Source: Polytrichum commune
Taxonomy: Eukaryota > Streptophyta > Polytrichopsida > Polytrichales > Polytrichaceae
Assembly (NCBI GenBank): GCA_950295325.1
Contig: OX485806.1
Location: forward strand, 33,914,001 to 33,978,000
Reading direction: 5' to 3'
Length of the DNA stretch: 64,000 nucleotides
The position numbers and the translations under genes were made by a program. The notes under the pieces were generated by a model, which searched no databases, was not told the origin of the DNA, and was given only the letters and a program-made list of their open reading frames with translations. Position 1 is the stretch's first letter, and each line of letters starts with the position of its first letter. Of this stretch, positions 1-59,819 are shown piece after piece.

Positions 1-62
1 AATAGGCAGTCTCTGGAGGCAGAGCTTTCGAAGAAGACATTTCTGGCAGCGTGAGCTTATTA

Positions 63-92
63 GGAGAGGAGGAGGAGGAGGAGGAGGAGGAG
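63..92 (+). repeat. GGA-rich microsatellite in the uricase 5' leader
   Basis: A run of GGA/GAG triplets lies directly upstream of the uricase start codon and is therefore probably in its 5' untranslated region. Purine-rich tracts are common in plant leaders; no specific role can be read from it. The promoter itself lies outside or at the very edge of the window. Confidence 0.6.
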
Positions 93-103
93 GTTGTTGA
101 AGT

Positions 104-3100
104 ATGGCCGGGGAGTTCGATCTGCAGCAGCAACACGGGAAGGCGAGAGTTCGAGTTGCGCGGTTGTGGCGTGGCCGGAGCCCCGGGGAGCAGCACCGGA
201 TCGTGGAGTGGAATGTCTCGATTTCCATCACCTCACACGCGCTTCCGGCGTTTACCGATGGCGACAATTCTTCGATCGTCGCTACGGATTCCATCAAGAA
301 CACGGTTCGTCGTTGTTCTGTCCCGCCTTGCCGCCTCCTTTCGTGTACACGCTCGTTGGCGTCGTATTGATTCTCTCTCTCATTCTCTTTCTGCTTCTGC
401 TTTGTGTTGTCTTACATCCCTGTTTCCCTGTGAATTTTCTGGCCGGAAATCCTCTTGGAAATCTTGTCAATGGAATCGCTTGGATCAGCTGACCTGCGTT
501 ACAGTCGGCTTCCTCGAGGAAGTTCTGCTATTGGTTCAGAACGCCTCAACTTGGCTAAAATGTCGTTCAATCCAAGGTTCCAAAGATATGTTCTGCGAGT
601 CCCCCTTTAGAGGGATGTGGACTCAACGAAATTGAAAGGGCTTTATGTCTGAGCATTTGCAACATTCCCTTAGTAACTTATAGAACGGAAATTTCACAAA
701 GAAGAGGGCGTTCTCGTAGAGATAAAACTATTTCACACGACGTTGTGGATGCCTGCAATTTATCATCAATTAATCTGTGGTTTTAAATTTATGGCTCGAT
801 AGACAGCTTGGGCTTTGGGCTTTGGTGTATTCAACTACTGCTGGGTTTTCCGATTCTTCAGTTGTTTGCACTCCTTTTTTCACTGCTATGGCACAAACAA
901 GTGTAGGGTCGCCTTCATTTGAGTGGACTTGCTAATTATTCAAATTTCTGGTGTGATTCTATCTCCGTTTCCTCTTTACCTTATCGCCCTTTAGTTAGTG
1001 GAATTTTCCGTTGCCGAGCTGAGCAGGTTTTACCCATTAACAATCCAAACTTTCTTCACTCTTCCTGCCCTCAATTGTGCGGTTAGACCAAAATTCAATC
1101 CGCACCCGAAAGCCTAGATAAGATCAAGTGCTCTCAAATGCGACTGACGTATTGCGAGTTTCGAAGCTGATCTTTACAAGTAATTGGAGATTATATAACG
1201 CTCGTCTTGTACCTTGAAGTTGAGCGTTTTCCAACGATGATTGACCCGTGTAATTTATGTAGACCTCCTCATATTTGCTAGATCTATGGACTCCTTGGAC
1301 TTATTACACTTATTAGAGTTCTTAGAGCCTGGTTTACAGAACCTGTCAGGTCTTGATCCCTGCATCTCACGGGCATTCTTACTTGATAGTTGGTAATTTA
1401 CTATGTTTATGGTGGTAATTGTGAATAGGTGTATGCCCTGGCAAAGCAATGCAATGAGGAGCTCTCTGTAGAAGACTTTGGAATTATTGTTGGACAACAT
1501 TTTGTGCGAACGTACCCTAAGGTATGCATTATGATGAGATAGCAATCTGCTGTACGCTTCATCCAGAGTCACAACGTAGGCGGAGGAAAATGGCTGGTTA
1601 TTTGTGTGTTTTATCCTCATATGCAAATTGTCCTCATCTTTACCTTGTAGTATTCCTATCTGTGTTACCCAGGCTCAAGATGTATCGCACATACATCGGG
1701 CCTTTACCATGCATTTTCAGCATGGAGTAATTTTTAGTATTTCTAAAGCTTCTGTCTACAGATTGTCACAGGTTGTAAGGTTTCACTTTGGGAGAAGCCA
1801 TGGGATCGAGTTGTTGTGAATGGTGTTGCTCACAATCATGGTAACTACCAGAACCTCTCTCCTCTTACTTGGAATACGGTATTGAATTGATCCAGAGTTG
1901 TAGTCACCTGTTATGTGCCATAGTTGGGCTGAATGGTTTGATGTCAGCCAAACACACCAAGACCTTGTTGCTGTGGATTAAATTTGCCTACACGTGACCT
2001 GAAATTTCAATGACCAAAGCACTAGGAGTGTTCTGTGGCGTTGTGCTCTTAGAGTTGAGCAGGCTGTACCAAACCCCCTCCCCCCCCCCTCCCGCCCCCT
2101 TTGTCTTTAATTCAGGCACAAATGGTTAATCTACTACCTTGTTGGTCACATTGGAAATGATGTGATTCTGTTTTGATTGCAGGCTTCAAATTGGGCACTG
2201 GGAAACACACTGCAGAAGTTATTGTTGGTAGTAGTGGACAGGCCAAGGTGACGACTGGTTTATCAGATTTGTCTTTGCTGAAGACAACCCAGGTACTTGA
2301 TACCTATCATTCAACGAGACACAAGTGCTTGTGTGTAACCATTTATGTACAAATGTGTATTCTCTAAGAGGTTATAAGTTCCCCTTTGTGAAGTGCAACT
2401 TATATGGATCTGCTAGCAAAAGGGACCTCACCAATTAAAGTCCATAACAAAAAGTAGGCTTTGATAGAGTTTCTATTGCACTTGGAATCTGACTTTACAA
2501 TCTTGTCTTTAGTGTCAAAAAGTATCTTAACAAGTGATGGTAGTCCTCTTGCATACTTGGTCGTGGTGCCAACTGTGTCTTACTTCTACTCGGAAGCATT
2601 GGAGGCATTCCCACTTATTCTCAACACCCCCCCCCCCCTTGTATCTAAACAAGAGTTCACTGGTGTGAGCTAACACATGCAATGGGTGGTATTCACAGTC
2701 CGGGTTTGAAAATTTTGTTCGTGATAAGTACACTATTTTGGGGGAGACAAAGGAGAGGATGATGGCTTCAACAGTTACTGCTCGTTGGAGGTATGTGTAT
2801 ACTAAGTTTACACAGTAGATTATTTTTTCTTTGTTTTATGTGATTGCAACTTTTTATCCAAAGCCTGATTGGTTGATTTGTGGCACAGCTATACGAGCAA
2901 CCGTGTGAGTTATCAGAAACTATACGAAGCTGTCAAAGATGAGCTTGTCAACAGCTTTTTTGGCCCTGCTGAGACTGGAACATATAGCCCTTCAGTTCAG
3001 AACACACTATACCTCATGGCAAAAGCTGTTCTACTCAGGTATTGGTTCTTAAAAAATTTAGTGGTCTTTACGTCTAGTAAATTGCTTATGAGTCCCTGTG

Positions 3101-8152: not shown

Positions 8153-8442
8153 TGTCGTATAAATAACGATCGTGTGTCACTGCAACTCAAGTACCAACCA
8201 CCACTAACAAATAACACTAAAACATAGCAAAGTCACACATAAACAACATACCTCGATACTTCACCTCACACAAGCTCTCTCCACACACTCACTCACAAGA
8301 CTTGACTTGGCAAGAATGCTAAGCCAAGGAGGAGGCTCCTCACTTAGGAGCCTTCCTCTTCACATCTAGATTCATCCATCCAAATCTAGATGGATGAAAC
8401 CCAACGGATGAGGTGCGGCCGTCGACGCCGCATACCGTGACA
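8153..8442 (-). mobile_element. Solo LTR related to the methyltransferase retrotransposon
   Basis: Read on the minus strand, this 290-bp block starts TGTCACGG and ends TTATACGACA, the same termini as the methyltransferase element (TGTCACGT ... TTACACGACA). It shares an internal core, CAAGTCAAGTCTTGTGAGTG. It also keeps palindromes at matching places, such as GGCTCCT/AGGAGCC and TTCATCC/GGATGAA, although the sequences differ. It therefore looks like an LTR of a sister family. No clear target duplication flanks it, so it is old or rearranged, and it may have truncated the gypsy element that follows. Confidence 0.65.
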
Positions 8443-8478: not shown

Positions 8479-11274
8479 CTATGTGTCTGAGGCGGATTGG
8501 AAGTATGTGGAGGTGAAAACTAGGAATGGGAAGGTTAGGCAGATGAAGATGGGGTCTAAGTTGGAGGAAAATGAAATCAAGGAGTATAGTGAATTAGTGG
8601 ATGGGTTCAGTGACACATTTGCATGGTTATATGACGAGCTTAGAGGCATACATTGGGAGATGGTGGAGCACCGCATTCCTTTGATTCCAGGTGCTAGACC
8701 AATGAGACAAAAAAAAGAAGGATGAACACATAGTTGGAGTTGTTAGTGAGGGCAGAGTTGGAGAGGTTGTTAAAGGCTGGGTTTATAAAGCGGGTAGAGA
8801 TCAAGGATTGGGTGTCTCCGATGGTGTTGGTCAAGAAGAAGAACGGGAAATTGAGGGTGTGTGTTGATTATAGGAAGTTGAATGCTTGCACACAGAATGA
8901 TCATTTTCCCTTATCATTCATCACGCTACTTTTAGAGAAGGTAGGTGGGCATGCCTGCTACACGTTCATGGATGGTTATGTGAGTTATAACTAGATTTTC
9001 ATAGCGTTACAAGATATTCATGAGACGGCTTTCACCATGCCTTGGGGCACGTTCGTGTGGGTGGTCATGCCATTTGGATTGTGTAATGCTTTAGCCACGT
9101 TTCAGATACTGGTCATGTACATCTTCACCGACTTGTTGTACAAATCCATGACAGTGTTCGTGGATGATTTTAGCACTCAGTCTAGTTCTAGTTAACATTT
9201 AGAGTGTGTGAGAGAGGTTTTGATTAGATGTCGGAAGATGCAGTTGGCTTTGAATCCGGACAAGACCTTCTTAGGAGTGCAGAGAGGAGTGTTGTTAGGA
9301 TACGTGGTGAGTGAGAAGAGAAGAGAGCCGGACCCGGAAAAGATAGCAGTCATAGATGAGTTGGCTACGCCAACCAATGCCATGGGCATAGCCAAGTTGT
9401 TGGGACACGTAGGGTGGTATAGAGAGTTGATCACGGATTATGCAAAGATTGCGGTATCTATCACGCAACTCCTTAAGAATGATGGTAAGTTTGAGTGGAT
9501 AGAGGCATGCCAATAAACATTCGAGGAGTTGAGGTCGAAACTTAGCACCTACCCGGTGTTGAGGTCACCAGATTGGGGAAAACCATTTCATGTGTTTTGT
9601 GATGCTGGTGCGGTGGCCCGTAAGTAGTGCATTGTGTCAGTCAACAGGAAACAAAGAAAATGATCAACCGGTGGCTTATGCGAGCCGACAGTTGACCCCC
9701 GCGGAGAGAAATTATTCAACCACTGAAAGGGAGTGCTTGGCCATAGTCTTCTCCGTTAAGAAGTTTCGTCGATCACATGGCGATTAAATTTTTAGTCAAC
9801 AAGGCGGAGTTGAGTGGGAGGTTGGCTAGGTGGGTCCTACTGTTGGAAGAGTTCGATTATACCGTAAAATATAAGCCCGGGCGTATGCACTTGCAAACGG
9901 ACCACTTATCAAGGTTGTTTGATGAGGTTTGATCCAATCCAATTGACGATAGCTTGAGGGATGACAAATTTTTTCTGGTAACCGCTAAAGCGGATTGGTA
10001 TTAAGGCATTGTTGAATTTCTAACAACTCAACAGTTAACTGGAGATTGGACGAAGGAGGATAGGAGGAAGGTCAGAGTTAATAGCAGGCACTACGCGGTG
10101 ATAGGGCAGAAATTATTCATGAGAGGGGCTGATGGTCTATTGAGGCGTTGCGTGTCGGAGGTAGGAGTGCCCTTTATCTTGGCCGCATGCCATGATAATG
10201 TATGTGGTGGACATTTTTCTAGACTACTCACATGCCAAAAGATACTTAGGGCATGTTATTTCTGGCCCGACCTGTTTAAGGATGCTAAGGAGTATGTCAA
10301 GAAATGTGATGCATGTCAGAGGTATGCGAGGAATGACCTCTGTATAGAATTGCCACTTCATGTGTCCTTATTTCTAGTCCCTTTTGATAAATGAGGAATC
10401 GATTATGTTGGAGAGGTTCACTCCCATTCCTCAAAATGTATGGTATATATTATAGTGGCCGCAAAGTATTTGACTAAGGGTAGAAGCTAAGGCAGTGAAA
10501 ACTAACACGGCCGCCTATATCGCCACGTTCATGTATGAGAACATCATTTCAAGGTTTGGGTGCTCCATGATTTTAGTTAGTGATAGGGGAACTCATTTCC
10601 TGAATTCTTTAATTCAAGAGATGACAGATAGGTTTAACATAGATTATAGAAAAACAACTCCTTATCATCCGCAGACCAATGGTCAAACGGGGCGTGTTAA
10701 CGGGACATTGGTGAGCATACTTCGCAAGACGATTCATGACTCTAAGAGGAATTGGGATGTCAAGTTGACAACGGCATTGTGGGCTTATCGAACAACCTTC
10801 AAGGTGACAACTCAAGCCACCCTATTTTCGTTGGTGTACGGATTGGAAGCGACTCTTTCCATTGAGTTTGAGGTCAAGTCATTGCGAGTGGCAGTAGATT
10901 CGCGTCTCACGGATAGTCAGTCACCGAGGAATAAATTGACAACATTTGAAGAGCTTGATGAGAGACGAAGGATGAGCGCTCAACACATTGAAACTATTCA
11001 AAGGCGAAGGAAGATCACCTTCGACCAACGGCACAAGACAAGGATTTTGAGGCCATGTATGATGATGTTACTTCAGGATGCTAGAAAGCTAGAGTTTCCA
11101 AGTAAGTTTGATACCGTATGGTTGGGACCATATCTCATTAGTGAGACATTTCCGAACAACTTAGTGCAATTGGAAACTTTGAATGGGGAAAACTTCCAAC
11201 CCGCACATCCCACAGTCGATGCAAGGAGTATTGAGCTTGAAATGACAACTTGCCTGCAGAACAAGATAATCTAG
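8479..11274 (+). pseudogene. Decayed Ty3/gypsy pol (RT, RNase H, integrase)
   Basis: In order: linker (8483-8725); RT start with VSPMVLVKKKNGKLRVCVDY (8734-8994); RT core with MPFGLCNA and FVDD, in which the usual YxDD reads VFVDD (9000-9180); thumb/connection (9208-9516); RNase H with CDAG, then [17 protein letters not shown] after a frameshift (9530-9920); integrase zinc region with CxxC as KKCDACQRY (10098-10394); and integrase core with VSDRGTHF and PYHPQTNGQTGRVNG (10495-10720). The catalytic Glu is Gly in that last motif. There are several in-frame stops (8992, near 9190, 9514, 10392) and frameshifts near 8720, 9610 and 9780. No gag or protease is left. It is dead. Its 3' LTR follows at 11301. 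Confidence 0.9.
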
Positions 11275-11300: not shown

Positions 11301-12270
11301 TGTGAGCCCAAATCGGTGCCTACATTCTAATTGAACTGAAAATCATGTTCAAACACCAATGTTAGCATTTTGTGGTGTTAGTTTTAGGCTTGATGGAGTT
11401 GGAGGGAATTAAATTTAGTTAGTTTCAAAATTAAGTTTGAAAGTGTTGTGATTTAAAAGGGGAAAAACTAAAAAGTAAGGTGTGTTAATTAGAGTTTGGT
11501 AAAGGGATAAACCAGTAAGGGCCTTGGCCATCTTTAATTGTTGGTTTTTGGTGAGTAATGTGTTCGTTTAGGGGTAGGGCACCCTCCTAGAGTTGGATTA
11601 GGCTCTGGATTTCCGGGCGGCACCGGGAGGGGGTCTCAGAGGCTGGCTCGGAGGACTGGGTTGTGTGTATCCGGGCTGGAAGAGAAAAGAGGATGCGGCA
11701 GGGAGTTTGGGCAGCGAGGTCGCAATCTAGAGCTACTAAGGGGATGGGTAGTGGATGGAAGGGAAGGTGAAGAAAAATGCTGGATGCGGCAGCGGTGAAG
11801 AGGGGCTGGCACCAACAAGGGCAGCAAGGCCGCCGAAATGTGGGACTCAACATTGCTACCAGGAGGTGGAATGAGTCTGCTAGAGATTATGCCATGGGAA
11901 CGCCCAGATTCGAGGAGGAGGATTGAGGAGGAACGTGCGGAAGGGGTGCATATTCGGTTGAGAGGTGAGCCGACATGAGTTAGTCATTGGGTGAGCAAGA
12001 TGCAAGAATATTGTTGTGCGGTTGAAGAGCAAGATCCAGATCAATGCGAAGAATGCGAGTCAGGGGAACTCCTACCAGGGGGGATGAATTTACTAGCTTA
12101 GATGTCGAGCAAGTGTGCCAATGCGGAGGGAGCACAACTGCCTTGAGAAGGCTGCGTCCACAGGTGCAGCCATCCAGCAGGAGGAAAGGAAGCAAGGCGC
12201 GGTCTGGTTAAGGGGAGGGACTGCCACACTGAGGAGCCAACCTCACGAGGAGCTCCACGGGCCTCCCATC
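11301..12270 (+). mobile_element. 3' LTR of the decayed gypsy element, first part
   Basis: Begins TGTGAGCCCAAATCGG 26 bp after the pol remnant. Related LTR starts (TGTGAGCCCGATATTG) occur at 61352 (plus) and at 59819 (minus strand). A second shared point is GTGTTCGTTTAGGGG near 11560, matching GTGTTCATTCAAGGGG in the later LTRs. It is interrupted at 12270 by the methyltransferase element and appears to resume at 22285. Short minus-strand open frames at 11587-12195 are LTR noise. Confidence 0.65.
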
Positions 12271-12703
12271 TGTCACGTGAGGTGACATCGGGGGCTAAGT
12301 CACGTCAACTTAGGAGTAAATGGACTCCATTAGGAGTCCATGTGTGTTGGGATGAGTAACGGACTCCATTGGGAGTCCTAGTTAGTTGTTCATCCACTCC
12401 ATGGATGAACTCCACATTGGATTGGGGTTGTATGGAGAGGAAGGCCTCTTGACTTGCCATTGTTGTCAAGTCAAGTCTTGTGAGTGTGTTTTGAGAGAGA
12501 GAGAGAGCTTGTTGTTGCTTTCTCATGGCTATGGTGTAGTAGATTATGAGTAAAGCCTTTGCATTCTTTCTCCACCACTTGCACTCTTGGATTCTCCCTT
12601 CGTGGAGTGAGAGATAGCTTGACTCTTGTGTGTGAATTTTAGAGTTTCTTAAGCTTTGTAAGGAGACATTTTAGTTTCTTAAGCTTGGAGAGAGAAACCC
12701 TCA
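12271..12703 (+). repeat. 5' LTR of the methyltransferase element (433 bp)
   Basis: Matches 21742-22174 over its full length without a difference I can see. It starts with TGTCACGTGAGGTGACA, itself a palindrome. The last 105 bp found at the end of the 3' LTR are missing here: after CCCTCAT the 5' copy goes on with ACTTGACAAC into the leader. A primer-binding site complementary to a plant initiator tRNA-Met (TGGTATCAGAGC-like) is not visible directly downstream. Confidence 0.9.
12274..12307 (+). promoter_or_regulatory. G-box and ACGT-core motifs in U3
   Basis: CACGTG, a perfect G-box, lies at 12274-12279 and TCACGTCA at 12300-12307. Both are ACGT-core sites of the kind bound by plant bZIP (and, for CACGTG, bHLH) factors. 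They lie in the first 40 bp of the U3 and are repeated in the 3' LTR. Binding is inferred from motif only. Confidence 0.4.
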
Positions 12704-13032
12704 TACTTGACAACAATTGTGCAAATTTTTCATTTTTGGTTGTATTTCTGAGCCAGAATGGCCCAGTAATGAGAGCAAATGAGTGATACAAGTGTTTGAA
12801 AGCTTAGTTTGTCATTTCTTGCAACCTTCAAGAAGATTTTGAGAGAAATCTTCCCATTTTTCTTTTGTTGTCTCTTTGTGTTTTCTTCAAGTGTTGATGA
12901 TTGAATCTTGAGATTCCATTTGGTCTCAAGATTCTCAAGTCACATCATTCTTGCTTGCAATTTGTAATTTTTTAAATCGACAAACAAACACAAACCAAAC
13001 ATAAAATCCGAATTTTTTTTATAATATTTTTT

Positions 13033-13222
13033 TGAGCTCCGGAGCTCCACGGACACTCTTGGAGCTCCTGGAGCTCCTGGAGCTCCAATTCTGCACCCCG
13101 GGCGGCCAAATCCCGGGCCGGGGCCGGAGACATCCCGGGCCGGGGGCGGGCGGGCGGCGGCCGGGCCCCACGGCGAGGTGGCAGCGGGCCGGGCCGGGGG
13201 CGGGCGGGCGGCAGCCTGGCCC
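13033..13222 (+). repeat. GC-rich, CpG-dense block with internal direct repeats
   Basis: Contains repeated GGAGCTCCTGGAGCTCC and two copies of a segment beginning CGGGCCGGGGGCGGGCGGGC, about 60 bp apart. It stands out sharply from the AT-rich leader and would fold strongly as RNA. Confidence 0.75.
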
Positions 13223-13259
13223 CCCTTTCCCCTTTTCAAGTAAGCTTTTGCCTCAAATA

Positions 13260-13490
13260 AAGTTGCTTAATTAAGTTTATTAATTAAGTTAGTTAGCTTA
13301 ATTAGTTAATTAGGTTAGTTAATTAACTTAGATTAACTTAATTATTTAGGTTCATTAGTTTAAGTTAATTAAGTTAAGTGGAGTTAAATTAACTTAATTA
13401 AGTTAATTCATTTAAGTTAATTAAGTTAATTAAGTTAATTAATTTAGGCTAATTAAGTTACTTAGATTAAGTTTCATTAAGTTAATTCAT
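13260..13490. repeat. Degenerate TTAATTAAGTT tandem repeat
   Basis: Low-complexity AT sequence made of variants of TTAATTAAGTTAG, much of it self-complementary through TTAATTAA. Confidence 0.75.
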
Positions 13491-13617
13491 TTTTTTTGTT
13501 TTGTTTTTTTTGTTTTATTATTTTATTATTTTAATTTTTAAATAAACCGGATTTTTTTATTTTTATTTTATTTTTTACTTTCACTTTCAAATTTGGCATT
13601 TCATTGTCACAAACTTT

Positions 13618-13912
13618 GAGGCTCAAATTTGGGGGCATACTAGCTCCGATTGAAGTGAAATTTGAGCCTATTTTGTGTGAAATTTGCCAAGGAATCCAAT
13701 GGTGTAATTGGATTTTTGATTGGAAGTCAAAATCATTGCTGAAATTGCTAATTTCAACGCTGATTTTTGTTTTTGGGAGCAAATTAACTCCGATTGGAGT
13801 GAAATTTGAGCCTAATTTGTGTGAAATCTTCCTAGGAGTCCATTGGTGCACTTAGTTTGTTGATTGGAGTTCATAATCACCTTGGAAATGAGCCTTTTCA
13901 ACGCTGATTTTT
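13618..13912 (+). repeat. Two tandem copies of a roughly 150-bp leader repeat
   Basis: Copy one (about 13618-13765) and copy two (about 13776-13912) share CTCCGATTG(A/G)AGTGAAATT, GAGCCTA(T/A)TTTGTGTGAAAT, CCAATGGTG/CCATTGGTG and TTTCAACGCTGATTTTT in the same order. Confidence 0.75.
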
Positions 13913-14067
13913 CATTTTAATTACCAATCTCCAACCTTTGCACAATTTTGGAATTCTGGGGGCATAAACACTTGGCATTTGGCAAGGGATTGCCATTTAG
14001 ATAGCCCGCAACAGGTGCAGGTTGCCATTACCTTGTAGATAGTTGCAGGTACTCAAGTGATTATTTT

Positions 14068-17000
14068 ATGGTGCAAACTAGGAGCCGATATTATCGATCT
14101 CCATCACCAGATTACTTGGAGGACGTGCATACCACAAATCTTGAGCCAGAGGTAGATACCAACGAGGCTTTTGAGCCTATTTCGGCGTTGGACACTACTA
14201 GTAGGCTTCGGATTTGGAGTGTCGGCACGTTCGACGACATGGAGGACGATCGCCACAATTCATTGCGTGATCGGTTCTCAGGTCGAGCTGGGGGCATTTC
14301 CTTGCCCGATTGGAAACTCCGGTTTCGTACCTGGATTAAGGAGAAACGCCAAAGGTCTTCCAATTTCAATGATTGGTATGCCTTTGAACTTCTGCCTCAG
14401 CATTTGGAGTATGAGGCACTCCAAACTTACGAACGCTGGACAGAGGGTCATCAGCGACAACTTCGGGAGGTGGAGCAGTATTGGGAGGCCCGGGTTGAGC
14501 TTATTTCAGCCCTTAAAGATGGGGCGATTGCCACCTTAGCTCCACCTACCTTAAAGGAGGAGGATCCACTGGAGGAGTCTGAGGACCAAGAACTGGCATT
14601 TGGGCCAATGGTGGCTGGCAGTAGCACGGCTACCCTTTCACGGATGGCACGTGCTACACAGGCAGCATTGACGGCTGTTGGTCCACCACCTCCGTTTAAT
14701 CCCCTTACTGAATTTGTCGCACATTTGGAAGTGGAGTATGGTGGGTTTCGGCGAGACCAGATGCAGCGCATCCAGGATTTCCGCCGAGAGAAGGATGATA
14801 CTCCACGGACCATGTATACGCGACTCGCGCGATTTGCTGTGGAGTCGGGAGGTGTTTTTGCTGAGAGTCAGCTTGTTAAAATCTTTTTGTCTAAGATTGA
14901 CAAGCGGCTACTTGAGTTGGCATCACCTCGGATTATCCTCGACTACGAGGGCCGAGCTACGCTTGCACAAGCGTTTGCCGTGGTTGAGAAATGTGATCGG
15001 GCTCTTTGCCAACATGATGCCACGGATATGGTATCTTGGATGACAGAGAGTCCGAAACCAAGAAGAATTGTCACAGCTACTAGCAATTTAGCTGAGACTC
15101 AACCCGTCAAGGAGCAAAAGATTTTGCATTGTTGGGGTTGTGGAGAAGCTGGTCATTCGAAGAATGATCCCAATTGTCCTAAGAAGAAGAAAACTCAGCC
15201 TTTGGGAAAATTCAAACAAAAGATGGAACCAGTAAGGGCAGGGGACAATTCTAAGAAGAGACAATTGAAATGTAGCCATTGTGGTGGCACTAATCACGAT
15301 GTGGATCATTGTTTCCTACTTCATCCTGAGATGCGGCCTGCCAGTTATGTCACTGGAAAGTCTCCAAGGGAGCAGAGTCTTGAGGCTAAGGTGGCAGAGC
15401 TTGAGCAAAAGCTCAAATCTTCTGCATCTTTTGCTCAAATTTCTGAGCCGCATGTGGGTGGTGGCACCTCGGGTTCGGACATGTATATGTTTGGAGCAGC
15501 TGGAGAGGTGGTGGCGGCGGCTTCTACTCGCTCACAAACATTGGCAGATGCGGTGGCTTCCACGAGTGGTGGTAGCAACGAGGTGCTACATCCTCGCCAT
15601 GCCGGACCAGCTGATCAAATTGGTCAAGCACGTTTACCTCTTTCATTTGGATTGGTAGACACCACTGTTGTTGGGGCTAAAAACCCTGTACCTTTGAGAG
15701 ATGGGGATTCCATCTCGAAGGATGTTACGCAGGCATTGGCATATAAAATTCTCCATATGCCAATTTTCTCGGGTTCGGAGTTTATAGCTTCGGATTTCAA
15801 GCCTGCTGCAGTTTTTCATTTAGCTGGGAGAATGTTAGAAGGTAAGGCGGATTTGCCATCCCTTCAAGTATCCCAAGCTGTGGTTGACGTACCTGTGGCT
15901 GAGGAGGTGGAGGACTTAGCCAATTTGCGAGCGAGTCTTGCGGATGCGGCGATCATTGCTTTTGGTAAGCAAACTGATATTCCTCCAGCATCAATTTCAG
16001 CAGTGGATACGTCGTTTGCGAATTATGCGTCCGGAGCGGCATATCTTGCAGACATTTCTGCAAGGCCTGCTCGCGAACGGCATAATTTGCAACCAGGAGT
16101 TGTACGGCTGATAAACGACAAATCTTTGTTTGTTGTTTCACGTACGGATATGCCCACTATCCGTGCTACACCACTGAGAGTTATGATGGATTCCGGTGCT
16201 CAACCGGTTATGATTGGCAAAGGACTCGCTGACAGTCTTGGATTGACGCCAGCAAGCTTGGATCCTTGTCCATTCACTATTGTGACTTCAGTAGGGGGCA
16301 CTGAACGTGCAACAGGTTATACCAAGGCACCTCTACGTTTGATTTTTCATGTGGGGGCAGGGCCTACTTACACTCATTTGTCAATGAAGTGTGTTGTTAC
16401 TAATGCTACCAACTATGATATACTTGTTGGTCAGCAAGCTCTTTACCCACTTGGCTTTGGTTTGGATAATTGGACGGAAGAGGCATGGATTAGACCGGGA
16501 TGGTCCACTGGAGATGGTAGGAAGGTATTTATTCCCGTCACATTTGCAGCCACTGCTATGACTATGGTTGCGGAGGCAATGTTTGGTTGCAGCGGTTTAG
16601 TTGCAGATTTGCCTTGTGCTCCAGTTTTATTGGAGGAAACAATGGATTACACTTGTAATGCGGCAGAACAACAATTTTTACCATCTTTTCAAATTCCTGC
16701 TCGACATTTCAAGGATCCACCTCCACCATGGCGAACTCCTAAGGAGTTATCCGACCATTGTCGACACATTGTAGCGGATTTGGAGCTTGGAGAGGCACCC
16801 CCAACTTCATCCTTATTTTCTTTTGCTCAACTCATTCGTTGGCAACCATCACTTGAAGGTATTGTCCTTGTGGAGATCTTTGGAGGCATTGGCACAGGTT
16901 TGGCGGCAGTGTTGGAAGCTGGAATTACAGTTTGGCGATATATTCATGTGGACAATGGGTATGCAGCCAACAGAGCCGTCCGACACCACATCCAACAATT

Positions 17001-18165
17001 GTTGTTGAGATACCCCGCACAATTGTCAGCCTCTGCCATTCATGGATGTTGTGGTCAACTTCCTCAAGATGTCACTATGATTAGTGATGAGGATTTGAGA
17101 AGGTTGGGCCACGTGGATTTGATTATTGCAGGATGGCCTTGTCAAGGCCATTCGCGGGCAGGAACTGGCCAGGGATTGGATGATCCTAGGTCTAGTTTGT
17201 TTGCGGATTTGATGCGATTGATGCAATGGTGGTTTACCCACCAATCGACTCCGCCAGGGTACATTTTCGAAAATGTACCATTATTGGGTGATACCCGGCA
17301 CAAAGTGGTGAAGGATAGTGAGTACATTAACCAAATTCTGGGTACTCCAACATTTCTGGATGCTGCATCTTTGGGATCCTTTGCTCATCGGCCTCGTTGG
17401 TTTTGGACCAACTTGGTATCACCTCGGGTGCTTTCAGTGGCGATTGCCCGCATTCCCCGCCTTATGGATCGCAAGGTGGATGACATTTTAGATGATCATC
17501 GTGTTTCCTTGGCAGTTACCAAGGATGACACCTTGCCATTTGCATTAATTAACAAGGTGGGAATTCCGAGAGGTGCACTACCTACTTTTGTGACATATCC
17601 ACAGTCTTTTGCATTTCGATCTCGTGGACCTGGCATGGTTTGGGATTCAAAATCCCAAACTTATGAGGAGCCTACGGCAGATGAGCGGGAACGCGCCATG
17701 GGTTTTCTTACAGGTACCACAGCTGCTCACGGGCTTCAGGAAGGTCAGAGACGTTTCCTATTGGGGCAAGCTATGGATCTTAATAGCATTGTGTGGATAA
17801 TTGGAATTTGTCTTGCTGCTCAACAACGTATAGATGACCAATTGCTTACTCTGAGGGCAGAGAACAATGGTCAGGGGGCAATGGAGCCGCAATCCAAGGA
17901 TCACATTGAGGTCAATGATACCGAGGGATTATTTCCTTTGAAACTTCATGTTGCGGAAGAGCTTCGAGCCCAACGTGTTTTTTCAGCTTTGGCCCAAGAG
18001 TTTGGGAAGTTGGAGGCCCATAAAATGTTTCCACTTCTATTTCTTGGTGATACTTCATATGTGGGTAGCTATTTAGCTACACAAACTGATTGTAGTGGAG
18101 AGGATACGCATTTGGATTCAAGTGCAGATGATGGGGGCAAAGGTGTTGCCCTCTCCACGGACTAG
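14068..18165 (+). CDS. Gag-protease-DNA cytosine-5 methyltransferase polyprotein (ORF1)
   Basis: 1365 residues from ATG 14068 to TAG 18163. Gag: about 1-335, with a retrotransposon-gag core near 210-310. Zinc knuckles: CWGC...H at C355 and CSHCGGTNHDVDHC at C402 (CCHC). Retropepsin: MMDSGAQPV with catalytic D708. C5-DNA methyltransferase: about 925-1250, with motif I VEIFGGIGTGLA (F938), motif IV GWPCQGHSRAG (nucleophile C1025), motif VI FENVP (E1068), motif VIII HRPRW (R1108, R1110), and a terminal GQAMD motif. The spacing and the GIGTGL / WRYI features resemble the DNMT3/DRM group more than DNMT1/CMT. All catalytic residues I can check are present. A likely role is methylating the element's own DNA or its target chromatin; that is inference. 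It is in the same frame as ORF2 and separated by one stop codon. Confidence 0.92.
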   Translation: MVQTRSRYYRSPSPDYLEDVHTTNLEPEVDTNEAFEPISALDTTSRLRIWSVGTFDDMEDDRHNSLRDRFSGRAGGISLPDWKLRFRTWIKEKRQRSSNFNDWYAFELLPQHLEYEALQTYERWTEGHQRQLREVEQYWEARVELISALKDGAIATLAPPTLKEEDPLEESEDQELAFGPMVAGSSTATLSRMARATQAALTAVGPPPPFNPLTEFVAHLEVEYGGFRRDQMQRIQDFRREKDDTPRTMYTRLARFAVESGGVFAESQLVKIFLSKIDKRLLELASPRIILDYEGRATLAQAFAVVEKCDRALCQHDATDMVSWMTESPKPRRIVTATSNLAETQPVKEQKILHCWGCGEAGHSKNDPNCPKKKKTQPLGKFKQKMEPVRAGDNSKKRQLKCSHCGGTNHDVDHCFLLHPEMRPASYVTGKSPREQSLEAKVAELEQKLKSSASFAQISEPHVGGGTSGSDMYMFGAAGEVVAAASTRSQTLADAVASTSGGSNEVLHPRHAGPADQIGQARLPLSFGLVDTTVVGAKNPVPLRDGDSISKDVTQALAYKILHMPIFSGSEFIASDFKPAAVFHLAGRMLEGKADLPSLQVSQAVVDVPVAEEVEDLANLRASLADAAIIAFGKQTDIPPASISAVDTSFANYASGAAYLADISARPARERHNLQPGVVRLINDKSLFVVSRTDMPTIRATPLRVMMDSGAQPVMIGKGLADSLGLTPASLDPCPFTIVTSVGGTERATGYTKAPLRLIFHVGAGPTYTHLSMKCVVTNATNYDILVGQQALYPLGFGLDNWTEEAWIRPGWSTGDGRKVFIPVTFAATAMTMVAEAMFGCSGLVADLPCAPVLLEETMDYTCNAAEQQFLPSFQIPARHFKDPPPPWRTPKELSDHCRHIVADLELGEAPPTSSLFSFAQLIRWQPSLEGIVLVEIFGGIGTGLAAVLEAGITVWRYIHVDNGYAANRAVRHHIQQLLLRYPAQLSASAIHGCCGQLPQDVTMISDEDLRRLGHVDLIIAGWPCQGHSRAGTGQGLDDPRSSLFADLMRLMQWWFTHQSTPPGYIFENVPLLGDTRHKVVKDSEYINQILGTPTFLDAASLGSFAHRPRWFWTNLVSPRVLSVAIARIPRLMDRKVDDILDDHRVSLAVTKDDTLPFALINKVGIPRGALPTFVTYPQSFAFRSRGPGMVWDSKSQTYEEPTADERERAMGFLTGTTAAHGLQEGQRRFLLGQAMDLNSIVWIIGICLAAQQRIDDQLLTLRAENNGQGAMEPQSKDHIEVNDTEGLFPLKLHVAEELRAQRVFSALAQEFGKLEAHKMFPLLFLGDTSYVGSYLATQTDCSGEDTHLDSSADDGGKGVALSTD

Positions 18166-18171
18166 CAATCA
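18163..18171 (+). promoter_or_regulatory. UAG-CAA-UCA stop-codon readthrough signal
   Basis: ORF1 ends in TAG followed directly by CAATCA. This fits UAG-CAR-YYA, the tobamovirus-type leaky stop context known to promote readthrough in plants. ORF1 and ORF2 share the same frame and no other in-frame stop lies between them, so readthrough would yield a 2413-residue Gag-PR-DNMT-Pol fusion in minor amounts. Confidence 0.75.
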
Positions 18172-21100
18172 CAGGCTGTGCTGGCACCAATTGGCAATCC
18201 TTCTATGAAGAAGGAAACCACGGAGTTTGACGATTGGCCAATTGAAGTGGGGCCAAAGCTTACTGGTGCCGAAGCACGAAAGGTACGGGCATTTATTCGC
18301 TCTTACCGTAATTGTTTTGCCTTTAGTCTTCATGATCTTGAAGGATATAAAGGTAAACCTGTTCGTATTCAACTCGAGGACGACCACCCTATTTTCAGAC
18401 GGCCGTACAGACTTAGTACCTCTGAAAGGTTGGGTGTTCAAACTCGATGTCAAGAGTTATTGGCAGCGGAATTGATTGAACTCTCCAATGGAGAGTATGC
18501 TTGTGCCACGGTTATGCCGTCAAAGAAGGATATCTTTGGCAACTGGACGGAAAAACGGATGTGTGGTGATTATCGTCCAGTCAACCGCAAGACCAAGTCG
18601 GATCGATATCCAATGCCGATGCCGGAGGAGTTGTTTGATGCACTGGGATTTTCTAGAATCTTCAGCACTCTGGATTTGAGGTCTGGTTATCATCAATTAC
18701 CTTTGTTGTTGGGTGATCGGGTGAAGACCGCATTTTGGGGAATTGATAAAGATGGCAAGGATCAACTTTATCATTGGAAATTTCTGCCATTTGGTCTCAA
18801 GAATGCACCAGCTGAATTCCAGCGGGTGATGGACCAATTATTGGCCGGTTTGCCGTTTGCTAGATGTTACATTGATGATGTTATCATCTTTAGTAATAGT
18901 CCACAGGATCATGTGAGACATTTGCAAGCGGTATTTGAACGACTTCAACGGTGGGGACTCCGTTTACATCATGGTAAATGTAAGTTTTTCCATGATCAAT
19001 TGCCCTATTTGGGCCACATGATTGTTCCTGGCGGTCTTGGTGTGCAACAGGCGAAGGTGGACGCTTTGCACAAAATTCCCGCACCTAGTGATGTACCACG
19101 GCTTCGTGCATTTCTAGGATTGGCAAATTATTATAGGAGGTTTGTCAAAAACTTTAGTTTGATTGCCAAACCTCTTACCATTCTCACGGGGAAAGACCAA
19201 CCATGGATTTGGAGTCGGGAACAACAACAGGCATTTGATACATTGAAGCAGAGGCTCGGTTCTGCGCCAGTGCTTCGACGCCCGGATGTGTCTAGAGCTT
19301 TTCAATTGCACACGGATTGGAGTGCAGTGGGATTGGGAGCGGTATTGACACAGAAAGATGAAGAGGGGAAGGAATATGTGGTGGCTTATGCATCTAGAAG
19401 TAATAATAGTGCTGAATCTAATTATTCTTCTTATGAAGGCGAGGCCTTGGCGGCCGTTTGGGCCATTGCACATTTTCGACCTTATTTGTATGGGCAAAAG
19501 TTTACTTTGGTGACTGATCATCAGCCTTTAAAATGGCTTATGGAATCAGATAAGCTCACCGGGAAACTTGCTAGGTGGGCATTGTTACTTCAGGAATATG
19601 ATTTTGAAGTTGTTCACCGAGCAGGAATTGCCAACTTGGATGCAGACGGATTGTCTCGCAATCCAAGTCCTTCAGATGAGGATTTAACTGGAGCCAGGTG
19701 GCATGGAGATTGTGATCGTGAGGCAGTGCCGGGTTGGCATGCTGCCACATATCTCACAATGATATCGGGATTGGCTGCTGAGATCCTTGTAGAAGAACAG
19801 GATGAGGAGGTTGATAAATCTCTCGTTGTTAGTGATGTGTGGGAAGACCAGGCGGTCTTGCACAAACTTCAACAAGGGATATTTCCTCTTGGACTATCTG
19901 CTATGGAGCGAGATAGAGTTAGTCACAGGATAACAAGGTTTCGTTGGGCAAACAGCTTGTTATTTCGTGTGTGGCCGAACGGAACGAGGCGCATCGTTCC
20001 AAGGCCAGATCAAAGAGCTTCTTTGGTGCGGCAAGTGCACGAGGAGCTTGGACATTTTGGAGTGCGAAGGACACACTCTATGTTGCGCAACCAATATTGG
20101 TGGACTGGTATGTATCAACAGGTTGCCGCTTATGTTTCTAGATGTGAAGTATGTGACCGGGTCAGGTCAAGTTTTAATACTTTATCACCTCAACTTCAGC
20201 CTTTACCTATTATGGGCTTGGGATATCGTTGGTCTTTGGATTTTGCCGGACCACTTACTATCACTCCACGTGGCTCCAAGTATGTGCTGGTGATGGTGGA
20301 GCATTTTAGTAAGTGGATTGAACTCGTGGCTCTTCCCCAAAATTCCTCAGAATTGGCGGCTATGGCATTTCTTGATCGAGTTTTGGCACGGTTTGGAGCA
20401 CCTGCAGAGGTGTTGACGGATCAAGGGAGAGAATTTCTTGGATCTTTCGAGGCTTTGTGCACCAAGGCTTTTATTGATCATCGGACAACTTCCAGAGATC
20501 ACCCTGAGGCAGATGGCTTAGCTGAACGAGTTGTTCAGACGGTTAAGCGCGGTTTGCGGAAGTATGGATTGCTTCATGGCAACCATCGCGATTGGGACTT
20601 GATGTTACCATGGATAGCAATGGGTTATCGTTTCAGCAGGCAAGCATCTTTGGCATCCTATAGTCTTTACCAACTCTTGTATGGACGGGAACCAATTTTA
20701 CCTAGCTCGGTGCGAGAGAAATTGGCTCCCGTGGTAAACTTGGATGATCCAGATGTTTGGGCTCAATGTCTTCATGACCGAGCAGCGTTCTTCCAAAAGG
20801 CCATGCCTATGGCTATGGAGAACTTGAATATTGCTCAACATCGTGATACATTACGGTATGCCCGGATCCGCAGTGGAGCTTATCGACCTCAGGTTCGTAG
20901 ATTTTCCAAGGGGGATTATGTTTACTTGCAACGGGAGGCGCCTACGACATTGGATGTCAAGGCTGGGCGCACGATTTTGCGGGTAAAAGATGTCTTGCCA
21001 AGTGGTATATTATTGCTTGAAGGCAAGGATGGACGGGAATGTCGTGAGCATTCAAAGAATTGTGCTCCATGTCACCTTCCCATCGACGGCTCTGTGCATC

Positions 21101-21309
21101 CCGAGTTGGCGGTTGTGCCACAGGGTCTGCCTTGTTATGTTTGTGGAGAGAAGAAAGGAGCTGCAACAATGTTATTGTGCGACCAATGTCAACGTGGATG
21201 GCACATGGCATGTTTGACACCTCCCCTTTTGACTCTTCCTTCTGGCAATTGGGTTTGTCCTCGTTGTCGGAAAGCCTCTCATTCCGTGGCCGTTAATGGT
21301 CATGATTGA
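18166..21309 (+). CDS. Pol: RT, RNase H, integrase with C-terminal PHD finger (ORF2)
   Basis: Continues ORF1 in frame after the leaky stop (first internal ATG is 18205). Residues are numbered for the fusion. RT: STLDLRSGYHQL, LPFGLKNAPAEF and catalytic YIDD (1601-1604). RNase H: HTDWSAVGLGAVLTQ (D1750), SYEGEALAAVWA, TDHQPLKWL. Integrase: zinc region H1991...CEVC, then D2058 (LDFAGPL), D2118 (LTDQGREF) and E2153 (ADGLAERV), all intact. After the integrase C-terminal barrel follows a PHD finger (2356-2400, nt 21133-21267): CYVC, LLCDQCQRGWHMAC, NWVCPRC, a complete C4HC3 set. PHD fingers often read histone H3 tails, so it could guide integration, much as chromodomains do in chromoviruses; that is inference. 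No stops or frameshifts occur in 1047 codons. Confidence 0.92.
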   Translation, partial: QSQAVLAPIGNPSMKKETTEFDDWPIEVGPKLTGAEARKVRAFIRSYRNCFAFSLHDLEGYKGKPVRIQLEDDHPIFRRPYRLSTSERLGVQTRCQELLAAELIELSNGEYACATVMPSKKDIFGNWTEKRMCGDYRPVNRKTKSDRYPMPMPEELFDALGFSRIFSTLDLRSGYHQLPLLLGDRVKTAFWGIDKDGKDQLYHWKFLPFGLKNAPAEFQRVMDQLLAGLPFARCYIDDVIIFSNSPQDHVRHLQAVFERLQRWGLRLHHGKCKFFHDQLPYLGHMIVPGGLGVQQAKVDALHKIPAPSDVPRLRAFLGLANYYRRFVKNFSLIAKPLTILTGKDQPWIWSREQQQAFDTLKQRLGSAPVLRRPDVSRAFQLHTDWSAVGLGAVLTQKDEEGKEYVVAYASRSNNSAESNYSSYEGEALAAVWAIAHFRPYLYGQKFTLVTDHQPLKWLMESDKLTGKLARWALLLQEYDFEVVHRAGIANLDADGLSRNPSPSDEDLTGARWHGDCDREAVPGWHAATYLTMISGLAAEILVEEQDEEVDKSLVVSDVWEDQAVLHKLQQGIFPLGLSAMERDRVSHRITRFRWANSLLFRVWPNGTRRIVPRPDQRASLVRQVHEELGHFGVRRTHSMLRNQYWWTGMYQQVAAYVSRCEVCDRVRSSFNTLSPQLQPLPIMGLGYRWSLDFAGPLTITPRGSKYVLVMVEHFSKWIELVALPQNSSELAAMAFLDRVLARFGAPAEVLTDQGREFLGSFEALCTKAFIDHRTTSRDHPEADGLAERVVQTVKRGLRKYGLLHGNHRDWDLMLPWIAMGYRFSRQASLASYSLYQLLYGREPILPSSVREKLAPVVNLDDPDVWAQCLHDRAAFFQKAMPMAMENLNIAQHRDTLRYARIRSGAYRPQVRRFSKGDYVYLQREAPTTLDVKAGRTILRVKDVLPSGILLLEGKDGRECREHSKNCAPCHLPIDGSVHPELAVVPQGLPCYVCGEKKGAATMLLCDQCQRGWHMACLTPPLLTLPSGNWVCPRCRKASHSVAVNGHD

Positions 21310-21634
21310 GGACTTTGTGGATGTTTACCACATGTTTTAGTGGTGAAGTTGTTATTTAGTTGGTTGGAAATTTTATGGGATTGAAAACCACATTGAAAGA
21401 GTTATCCAAGAATTCAACATTAATTGTTGAAGGCGATTAAGGATGGGGCTCACATTGCACCCAGCCTACAATTCTTGGATTACTTTGTCAATCACGAGTT
21501 TAATTCCTTCGATTACTACTACCTAATTAAATATGTATAGATGTAGCAACAACTTCATCATGTTCAACAACTCTATCGATGAGTGTGTTTGTTCCTAGCC
21601 GATTGGAGGGGCTCCTTATCTGCTAGTGGGGGCA
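21310..21634 (+). other. 3' untranslated interval with polypurine tract
   Basis: Non-coding sequence between the Pol stop and the 105-bp repeat. AGTGGGGG at 21625-21632 is the best polypurine-tract candidate for plus-strand priming. It is unusual that it lies about 110 bp before the U3 start at 21742 rather than next to it. Confidence 0.55.
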
Positions 21635-21739
21635 CTTGAAGAGGTGGTTGTTAGCATTTTAGTTTGTTATTTTATTTTGCTATTGATGTTGACAACGACA
21701 CTCGATCTGTTGTGTTTAACGATCTTAGTTTACACGACA
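21635..21739 (+). repeat. 105-bp repeat A, copy 1 (before 3' LTR)
   Basis: Starts CTTGAAGAGGTGGTTGTTAG and ends TTACACGACA. An identical copy lies at 22176-22280, at the very end of the element. Copy 1 is separated from the U3 start TGTC by only GC, as in an LTR-LTR junction. Confidence 0.95.
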
Positions 21740-21741
21740 GC

Positions 21742-22280
21742 TGTCACGTGAGGTGACATCGGGGGCTAAGTCACGTCAACTTAGGAGTAAATGGACTCCA
21801 TTAGGAGTCCATGTGTGTTGGGATGAGTAACGGACTCCATTGGGAGTCCTAGTTAGTTGTTCATCCACTCCATGGATGAACTCCACATTGGATTGGGGTT
21901 GTATGGAGAGGAAGGCCTCTTGACTTGCCATTGTTGTCAAGTCAAGTCTTGTGAGTGTGTTTTGAGAGAGAGAGAGAGCTTGTTGTTGCTTTCTCATGGC
22001 TATGGTGTAGTAGATTATGAGTAAAGCCTTTGCATTCTTTCTCCACCACTTGCACTCTTGGATTCTCCCTTCGTGGAGTGAGAGATAGCTTGACTCTTGT
22101 GTGTGAATTTTAGAGTTTCTTAAGCTTTGTAAGGAGACATTTTAGTTTCTTAAGCTTGGAGAGAGAAACCCTCATCTTGAAGAGGTGGTTGTTAGCATTT
22201 TAGTTTGTTATTTTATTTTGCTATTGATGTTGACAACGACACTCGATCTGTTGTGTTTAACGATCTTAGTTTACACGACA
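21742..22280 (+). repeat. 3' LTR of the methyltransferase element (539 bp)
   Basis: Consists of the 433 bp shared with the 5' LTR plus one T and the 105-bp repeat A, which I read as U5. It starts TGTC and ends GACA, and CATC follows as the target duplication. The related solo LTR at 8153-8442 ends TTATACGACA, which supports this as the true LTR end. Confidence 0.8.
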
Positions 22281-22284
22281 CATC

Positions 22285-57981: not shown

Positions 57982-59819
57982 TGTCAGCCACAAACCCCCA
58001 CCCTTGTGCGTCGTAATCCGGGTGAGAGCTCATGGCTCACATGTACTTGTACAACCTCCTTTAGCCCTTGCAATCAACCTCCCAATGCTCCATCCAAATG
58101 AACATAAACCACACAACTTTTTATTCAAGAGAACGAGGTGACAAGTATTTAAAAATACTCCTCTCCCTCACAGCCATGGCCACACATGATAATCCAAAAC
58201 ACCCACAATCATGAAGCAGTTAACTAAACTTACCCATCCCCTAATGGCACAGAAACCACACCAATTGTGCATTTGGCTTTCCCATGCCCTCACTACACCC
58301 CCTACTCCTTCAACCCCCACCCCGCTAACATCCTACTTAACCATCCCTACTCATGCCCACTAATCTATAGTTAATTAAGATTTTTATTTATGGGCAAGTA
58401 ATGGCTATGTCGCCCCTGCCTTGCTCGGACTCTCCCTTGTTTCGAGTCTAGGAGTTGTTCATCTTGCCCCTGGGAATGCAGCCTTCCCTGGCGTCCAGCA
58501 AGCTTGTGACAACTGCAGAAGTCCTACAAATTTGATTGAGCAATTCTAGCTCAAGAGGGTGCACAATTCCGCACTCCTTCGAGGCCCATCTCACTGCTTC
58601 CTCCTCTCTGTGGCCATAGCACAACAACCAGCTGACTGCCTTGCTCGGCACTTCAGCTCCTTCACTGAATTCCTTAACCCTCCCCTATTTCAAGGATTCC
58701 GACACCTCCTTCTAGACCATTATGTCAATTCCAGCAATGGATTCACTGCCACTTCATCTAACCGCAGTTCACACCTCCACCCAAGAGACAGAGGTAGGTT
58801 GATGATCCTCGATTTTCCCCTCTCCCACTCAGCGCTGCTGCGGAATTTCGTTGACCCAATAGTAACCAGATAGATTTGTACTTCTCGAATCCTCACTGCC
58901 CAGCATTGAATGAGATCACAACTGCCTCAGGGTATGCAGCATTGTTGCTGCCGGAATTAGAATGGAGCGGTGAGACTCCCTCCGACACCACCCAGGGCTG
59001 AGTCAACCACAATGCGAGATTCCACAAGCTGCAGAATTGTGGCACGCAGTTGGTGCTAGCAAATTCCCTTGATTAATGACGCCTGATCTGCATCCTTCTG
59101 TATCCGAAATCCTTCCCGCTCCTGCATGTCTTTGTCTCAGCTCTACTCTCTAAGGTGAGGTTTCGATCCTCGCCTAACTATCCTAGTAATTACTGCCACT
59201 CATGCCTCAGCCGCGGTTGCCTCCAGATCTGGGAGCTGACAACTTCACTCCTTCTGCTTCCATCCTCTTGGTTCTTTGTTTGGCAGCCTGAGACGACACT
59301 CCTCCCACTTCCCTCGCTACTTCTAACTCCTCCATTCATGTTTCGAAACAACCAGTAGCCTGCATCGTCCTCTCATCTGTCTCACCCTCAAGCAACCGCA
59401 GCCAGGGAGCTTCGCCGCTCTGCCCAGCCGCCGCTGCCTTCCTCGTCTGCTGAGAAAGAGAACTGGAGAGCCACCGAAAACAAACAGGGGCCCTGATCTG
59501 GAAATCCGGAACCCAATCTGGAATTGTGAAGGGACCCCCCCCCTTGAATGAACACACAACTTACCCTACTCACCCAATTAACCTTGGGTCAAGGCAATTC
59601 AACTTGGTGCATCAAAACTTAATTTAACCTTACTCACTACTTTTTAGTTTTTCCTTTTTGATAACCAGAGCTTCTCAATCAACACCACTAAAGATAATTA
59701 GCACCTAACGCTCTTAACTAATTCTAAAATTATCCCTTTTAGCAACCCCCTCACATAAATACTAATTTTTAATAATTTTAATGGTTAAGAAGACATGTGG
59801 GCACAATATCGGGCTCACA
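57982..59819 (-). mobile_element. Solo LTR, minus strand, CTTAA target duplication
   Basis: 1838 bp. Left end TGTCAGCCACAAACCC; right end GGGCTCACA (TGTGAGCCC on the minus strand). The 5-bp duplication CTTAA flanks it exactly (57977-57981 and 59820-59824). No internal region accompanies it, so it is a solo LTR left by recombination. The ends match the solo LTR at 61624. Confidence 0.85.

Follow-up and report, generated by a model that had tools for sequence, protein, structure and literature searches.

What kind of transposable element carries both a DNA methyltransferase (DNMT) and a PHD finger, and what could it do with the two together? This question is raised by a locus of Polytrichum commune (assembly GCA_950295325.1, contig OX485806.1, positions 33,914,001 to 33,978,000; the 64,000 nucleotides analyzed are hereafter the window). 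A first-pass annotation, made from the letters only, had described a young gypsy element here, in which a C5-DNMT is joined to Gag-protease and the integrase ends with a complete C4HC3 PHD finger, and each of these claims held up. The stretch from 12271 (TGTC...) to 22280 (...GACA) on the + strand, limits that are exact, is almost certainly a recent insertion of a high-copy Ty3/gypsy retrotransposon, of a lineage that combines a PHD finger at the integrase end with a DNMT3-like DNA methyltransferase. At the sequence level, this is shown by the order of the domains and their intact catalytic motifs, by target duplications of 4 bp, by numerous sister copies that have both domains, and by the conservation of amino acids between subfamilies. 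Our favored reading as a whole, which adds a proposed life cycle and function to this identity, is somewhat more tentative, and we consider it fairly probable.

Coding capacity of the element

The order protease, reverse transcriptase (RT), RNase H and integrase, with a DDE integrase, is that of Ty3/gypsy elements, as are the TG...CA ends with a 4-bp target duplication (23 of 25 assessable insertions). The two full-length direct long terminal repeats (LTRs) of such elements are replaced by split repeats, described below. The RT (RVT_1, E 9.1e-31), RNase H (RT_RNaseH, E 8.1e-39), both integrase domains (H2C2, E 9.6e-18; rve, E 1.3e-13), the DNMT (DNA_methylase on open reading frame 1, ORF1, E 1.3e-11, 45 bits against a cut-off of 22) and the PHD finger (PHD on ORF2, E 2e-10, 41 bits against a cut-off of 24) all exceeded the curated Pfam cut-offs. 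The protease was weak in Pfam (E 5.4e-4, under the cut-off), with DSG present, and the CCHC knuckles, which received no Pfam call, were read from the sequence. The Pfam scan of the element proteins detected no tyrosine recombinase and, up to E 1, no chromodomain after the integrase, where the PHD finger is found instead.

Judged by sequence, profile and predicted fold, the methyltransferase is DNMT3-like: its closest solved catalytic domain is that of DNMT3A/DNMT3B, its best match is DNMT3, and motifs I, IV, VI and VIII are present. It consists of the catalytic domain only, as neither a PWWP nor an ADD domain was detected by Pfam in the element proteins up to E 1. Across the family, the catalytic Cys is kept in all 55 readable DNMT domains, the motif VI Glu and the motif VIII Arg in 56 of 57 each, and the Pro before the catalytic Cys (motif IV) in 25 of the 26 domains that lie before the RT (type I, see below). 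Between the two subfamilies distinguished in the genome, the proportion of nonsynonymous differences (pN) was 0.23 for the DNMT against a synonymous proportion (pS) of 0.72–0.74 (raw ratio ~0.3), and 0.10 against 0.65–0.66 (raw ratio ~0.15) for the integrase C-terminal domain (CTD) and PHD finger. The true ratios should be lower, because synonymous sites are near saturation.

All eight zinc ligands of the PHD finger are present in the element, and 118 of 121 family PHD fingers have the full C4HC3 set in canonical spacing. The residue two before the His is G, A or P in 118 of 118, with no cage Trp, and an Asp directly follows the third Cys in 113 of 118. The best 60 of 111 PDB matches include KDM5/Lid, KAT6A, BHC80 (PHF21A), CHD4, UHRF1, AIRE and ATXR5; ING, BPTF and TAF3 were not seen among these 60. 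PHD fingers of the kind matched read histone H3 unmethylated at K4 (H3K4me0). The sequence of the element's finger agrees with this class of unmodified-H3 readers, and it may bind H3K4me0 likewise.

ORF2 is in frame with ORF1 across a single stop. The stop and its context read UAG CAA UCA in the window and in 16 of 17 fetched subfamily-1 copies, UAG CAA CCA in the remaining copy (L021), and UAG CAA UUA, with different surrounding bases, in both readable subfamily-2 copies (the third was unaligned there). All observed stops fit UAG-CAR-YYA, which we take to be the tobamovirus-type (type I) readthrough context, and the downstream ORF is in frame as such readthrough requires; CAR-YYA after a stop is expected at ~1/512 with equal base frequencies. 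In one relative (P0026) both parts are fused in a single 2358-aa ORF. Given the in-frame ORF2 and the readthrough-type stop, we predict that the DNMT is produced together with Gag, whereas the PHD finger would be part of the rarer Gag-Pol.

Genomic copies and relatives

The 408-Mb assembly of the window (seven large contigs of 42–78 Mb) was searched for further copies. Since these searches score the best candidates only, all genome counts are lower bounds. At least 123 DNMT places were scored (353 candidates), and the integrase-CTD-PHD queries of the two subfamilies found at least 150 places each (542 and 539 candidates), or at least 251 distinct integrase-PHD places when pooled. An integrase-PHD partner lies 3.6–7.8 kb downstream on the same strand for 94 of the 123 DNMT places (~0.3 expected by chance), within 3.5–4.6 kb for 86 of these 94. 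We fetched 20 copies with their 5'-to-DNMT and 3' pieces, followed by a further 40 3' ends and 10 5' ends, picked from high-scoring places and not at random. Subfamily 2 shares 84–87% identity with subfamily 1 in the integrase-PHD part and 63–64% in the DNMT protein. The DNMT and PHD pair belongs to a wide family and is not a single capture. The first-pass annotation had named failure of the domains to match their family profiles, or copies lacking both, as grounds for giving up its claim; both domains pass Pfam and both recur in other genomic copies, so these grounds are absent.

A protein search with the DNMT returned 32 proteins, including ones from Marchantia polymorpha and Sphagnum fallax, and a search with the integrase-PHD part gave 488 matches among 8000 scored candidates; the 120 best matches were examined. 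A PHD finger is present in 118 of these 120, and a purpose-built profile detected a whole or partial DNMT in the same protein for 48. Of the two proteins without the finger, P0067 ends 18 residues past the CTD, and the other is P0147. Proteins of Volvox reticuliferus (P0080) and V. africanus (P0109) carry both DNMT and PHD, a Haematococcus lacustris protein (P0036) has integrase and PHD, and P0039 carries a transcript-assembly name. No protein named as Klebsormidium was among the matches listed in the protein searches. Three viral loci from IMG/VR were related at 31–35% identity, the family member P0119 is assigned to a metagenome bin of Spirochaetia, most likely through an error in binning, and P0030, a polyprotein of the type II defined below, has a signal-peptidase S26-like match after its PHD finger.

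Two arrangements were found, with the DNMT before the RT (type I) or between RNase H and integrase (type II). In the DNMT tree, built from 40 of the 57 domains and one outgroup (SH-aLRT support only), a 100% branch separates the two. In the polymerase tree (42 rows; again SH-aLRT only), the 15 type II rows, with one DNMT-less row (P0137) in their midst, are on one side of a 99% branch. When the DNMT tree is rooted on its outgroup, a single, long DNMT3A segment with 49% of columns filled, the type I domains of P0026, P0044 and P0147 are placed next to type II (support 80). The DNMT may have been captured once and moved within the element, or captured twice, and that of P0044, an outlier with an end branch of 1.57, may be a replacement. 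As the PHD finger is common to both types, it probably goes back at least to their split.

Split repeats, priming and integration

The near-identical LTRs of the first-pass annotation proved right as to sequence and wrong as to structure. There are two direct repeat families, A (434 bp), flanking the coding part, and B (105 bp), flanking the right A, in the layout A1-internal-B1-GC-A2-B2 (Table 1). A1 and A2, and likewise B1 and B2, are identical in the window copy, and 7 of 13 fetched copies compared also lack any difference in either pair, which points to recent activity. Insertions start at A and mostly end at B, and none of the 40 best-scoring of 829 5'-end candidates was preceded by B or had the mirror form (A-B-A-internal-B). 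A plain two-LTR structure was rejected on the basis of the split repeats and these 5' ends.

At least 40 full B-A-B ends were scored in the genome (827 candidates). Of 58 subfamily-1 3' ends inspected (window included), 57 were assessable, L076 being excluded because its fetched piece ends there: 45 were B-A-B, 9 B alone, 1 B-A (L060) and 2 A2 followed by inverted A (L038, L086). The three subfamily-2 copies have different repeat sequences in the same layout. Among subfamily-1 insertions, counting the window copy, 16 of 17 have perfect 4-bp duplications, as do 4 of 5 additional B-only copies and 3 of 3 subfamily-2 copies; for the A-internal-B copies, 7 of the 8 checkable have one. In L060 the element stops a little beyond A2, possibly with an ACCT duplication.

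A1 is followed by 13 bases that form the reverse complement of its positions 189–201, which begin 28 bases past the start of TATGG. A complementarity of 13–16 nt is kept in 15 of 16 fetched copies assessed (L043 is unmatched). In subfamily 2, the primer binding site (PBS) and the leader have both changed, yet a 15-nt pairing between them is retained in 3 of 3 copies, indicating compensation. A leader complementary to the PBS, conserved as a pair in this way, is the mark of self-primed (Tf1-type) elements, and the A2-PBS-inverted A (201..1) ends of L038 and L086 are the product expected from fold-back of this pairing. A tRNA primer was rejected, as by eye there is no TGG-type PBS directly after A1 and the self-complementary match is found instead. 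From these conserved signals, both stop readthrough and self-priming very probably occur.

Since the PBS follows A1 and a G-rich tract precedes B1, the expected product of standard reverse transcription is B-A-internal-B-A. At the A2|B2 joint, the PBS-side end is fused exactly to the tract-side end in both subfamilies. Because the joint fuses two predicted reverse-transcription ends, it points to integration from joined ends: we infer that the two finished B-A...B-A ends would be joined and that integrase would then cut at GACA|GC|TGTC, leaving A-internal-B-A-B.

The alternative is that A-internal-B-A-B is copied directly, as in DIRS elements, by template jumps over the B1-A2 junction, with neither end joining nor an inside cut. 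This is a credible competitor, though on balance somewhat doubtful. The A2|B2 joint is identical in most copies and could be inherited in the RNA, and the mirror form, which a randomly cut two-repeat circle should also produce, is absent among the 40 best-scoring 5' ends. On the other hand, the joint unites exactly the PBS end and the polypurine-tract end in two subfamilies whose repeat sequences differ, and its length changes (L021, L035, L043, L075, L089; other junctions were not systematically counted) resemble end-joining scars. The nine A-internal-B ends, with a target duplication in 7 of the 8 checkable, also speak against direct copying. DIRS elements have a tyrosine recombinase and no target duplication, whereas this family has a DDE integrase, 4-bp duplications and, in Pfam, no such recombinase. 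We retain integration from joined ends, although the one-sidedness of the insertions, with no B-first or mirror form among the 40 best-scoring 5' ends, counts against it.

Table 1 Features of the element and its target site in the window.
Feature	Position	Strand	Basis or remark
Target duplication CATC, left copy	12267..12270	.	sequence
Repeat A1, TGTC at integrase-defined left end, CTCAT at PBS	12271..12704	+	self-comparison
Putative self-primer ATTGTTGTCAAGT, complementary to PBS	12459..12471	+	sequence pairing
Putative primer binding site ACTTGACAACAAT	12705..12717	+	sequence pairing
Two tandem 144-bp units in long 5' leader	13628..13915	+	repeat comparison
ORF1: Gag, CCHC-like knuckles, DSG protease, DNMT	14068..18165	+	1365 aa, open
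Aspartic protease region	16168..16467	+	Pfam below cut-off
DNMT3-like C5-cytosine methyltransferase domain, ORF1 residues 930-1248	16855..17811	+	profile, predicted fold
UAG CAA UCA stop, type I readthrough context	18163..18171	+	ORF2 in same frame
ORF2 (Pol): RT, RNase H, H2C2, integrase core, CTD, PHD	18178..21309	+	1043 aa, open
Reverse transcriptase, YIDD	18466..19029	+	Pfam
RNase H	19228..19602	+	Pfam
Integrase zinc-binding and DDE core domains	19993..20649	+	Pfam
Integrase CTD (SH3/GPY-like position)	20881..21102	+	name inferred from position
C4HC3 PHD finger	21133..21267	+	Pfam, ligand spacing
G-rich polypurine-type tract AGTGGGGGCA, putative plus-strand primer	21625..21634	+	sequence; subfamily 2 has GAGGGGGGGCA
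Repeat B1	21635..21739	+	self-comparison
GC spacer between B1 (GACA) and A2 (TGTC)	21740..21741	+	sequence
Repeat A2	21742..22175	+	self-comparison
Repeat B2, GACA at integrase-defined right end	22176..22280	+	self-comparison
Target duplication CATC, right copy	22281..22284	.	sequence

An AT-rich array (13256–13491) precedes the 144-bp units of the 5' leader, and the leader of L102 contains GC-rich tandem repeats (GGGCGGGCGGC...). In L031/L032, L043/L044 and L086, A is internally duplicated in its 3' part, in A1 as well as in A2 (shortened in A2 of L043/L044), and A2 of L086 contains a 79-bp piece in three additional tandem copies. Elsewhere in the window, a 54-nt match (83%) to part of repeat A at 8275–8328 (−) is perhaps an old solo remnant. 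A divergent gypsy-type integrase fragment, below the Pfam cut-off, lies at 10495–11274 (+), ~1 kb left of the insertion, so the element seems to have inserted beside older transposon sequence. An 842-aa ORF at 25378–27906 (−) spans 4.7 copies of a 420-bp tandem repeat (25479–27437, 97% matches) and has recurring cysteine-histidine motifs, with no Pfam family above cut-off. An inverted pair of 273 bp with 93% identity is at 59547–59819 and 61352–61624.

Proposed function, rivals and meaning

The following life cycle is proposed. The RNA would prime its own minus strand through the 13-nt leader/PBS complementarity. Its main product would be Gag-protease-DNMT, with a minority of ribosomes reading through UAG-CAA-UCA to add Pol-PHD. 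Being made in Gag amounts, the DNMT could sit in the particle with the cDNA and methylate the new double-stranded cDNA, or the chromatin of the landing site, before or at integration; we regard such self-methylation as possible but rather doubtful. The PHD finger, which may be of the H3K4me0-reading class, would tether integrase to silent chromatin, taking the place that the chromodomain has in chromoviruses. Tethering of this type is plausible, with the case for and against it nearly in balance. DNMT3 itself pairs an H3K4me0 reader (ADD) with a methyltransferase, and the family might have rebuilt this logic by placing a reader on its integrase and a DNMT3-type writer in its particle. The element would then insert into methylated silent chromatin and also impose it, and a DDE integrase would cut its joined ends at a site within the repeat. 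This complete scheme, with its 'writer plus reader' function of the pair, is a speculative and on present evidence unlikely extension.

Several observations weigh against parts of the overall reading. No integrase-PHD partner was found among the scored places for 29 of the 123 DNMT places, and a few of the 123 may be host genes. P0147 has DNMT and integrase with no PHD, and the Marchantia matches show the DNMT, none of them extending to the integrase C-terminus. L033 and the A-internal-B copy L069/L096 are without a target duplication. Glu stands in place of the motif IV Pro in 21 of 31 type II domains, some of which may therefore have altered activity. Within subfamily 1, pN/pS was only 0.47 for the DNMT (15 copies, one with an internal stop) and 0.60 for the PHD finger (18 copies), values that are to be expected if many copies are dead. 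The element shows no CG depletion (observed/expected 0.66 vs 0.54 for the remainder of the window), so self-methylation draws no support from this measure. Nor did the differences between A1/A2 and B1/B2 in 13 copies (6820 sites) have the CG excess of a CG-decay signature, with 29 transitions (3 CG, 1 CHG, 25 CHH) and 5 transversions.

It is possible, and about as doubtful as self-methylation itself, that the two domains do unrelated tasks, with the PHD finger only tethering integrase and the DNMT acting in trans, e.g., by diluting or misdirecting host silencing or by protecting cDNA, without marking the landing site. They are indeed in two different primary products with a stop between, and the DNMT changes position between types I and II while the PHD finger follows integrase in both; against this, deeply diverged relatives have the two together in both arrangements, and type II elements carry them in one polyprotein. 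That the DNMT is kept for a non-catalytic job, such as nucleic-acid binding or particle structure, would accord with the Glu substitution in type II, but is improbable given the near-complete retention of the catalytic Cys, of the motif VI and VIII residues, and of the Pro in type I domains. A chance fusion, contamination, an assembly error or a single captured copy was ruled out, its likelihood being negligible: the architecture is rare in print and nothing else speaks for such an origin, whereas partnered DNMT places recur in the genome, relatives with these domains exist in other organisms, and contiguous copies are flanked by target duplications.

Part of what we describe is already known. 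As the first-pass annotation noted, gypsy elements with captured DNMTs exist in charophytes; according to the passages of PMC5890265 on KnitGypsy-Dnmt3 of Klebsormidium nitens, this green-lineage LTR element has a Dnmt3-related DNMT, reported under purifying selection, and repeats of the DIRS structure (A-coding region-B-A-B), as here. In KnitGypsy-Dnmt3 the DNMT is in the Pol ORF, whereas here it ends the Gag-protease ORF, although in-frame readthrough would still join it to Pol; the term PHD is absent from the main text of PMC5890265. Tcn1 chromoviruses of mosses and club-mosses are also predicted to be self-primed (PMC6317226, in its part on these elements); they differ from the present family, which has a PHD finger in place of the chromodomain, plus a DNMT. 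Ginger1-9_HM likewise has a gypsy-type integrase with a PHD motif further on, but is described in the relevant part of PMC2836005 as a Hydra DNA transposon with a Ulp1 protease; being a DNA transposon, it has no RT. No integrase-PHD gypsy element with a DNMT was recognized in the open-licence literature searched, a scope with bioRxiv and most subscription papers outside it. The likeness to DNMT3A/DNMT3B extends from the catalytic domain to the pairing of a reader, here putative, with a methyltransferase; the difference is that no PWWP or ADD was detected in the element and that its putative reader is a canonical C4HC3 PHD finger in another polyprotein part. Arthropod retrotransposons have reportedly captured a methyl-CpG-binding domain (de Mendoza 2019), also a DNA-methylation module, but a methyl-CpG reader and not, as here, a writer with a histone reader. 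New in this family are the pairing of PHD with DNMT, also in volvocine algae, a readthrough signal kept in two subfamilies, covarying self-priming complementarity, and split repeats with 4-bp target duplications.

Hosts silence retrotransposons by DNA methylation. A family with its own methyltransferase and histone reader reverses this defense and makes self-silencing as a strategy testable. Volvocine algae and this genome have both parts, and Marchantia and Sphagnum also have the methyltransferase part. The large numbers of genes annotated as DNMT in some plants and algae may find their explanation here, as many of these may be transposon genes. Integration from joined ends is an idea that was given up for retroviruses, and the split repeats with target duplications make it possible to ask whether joined ends can serve as substrate for a DDE integrase.

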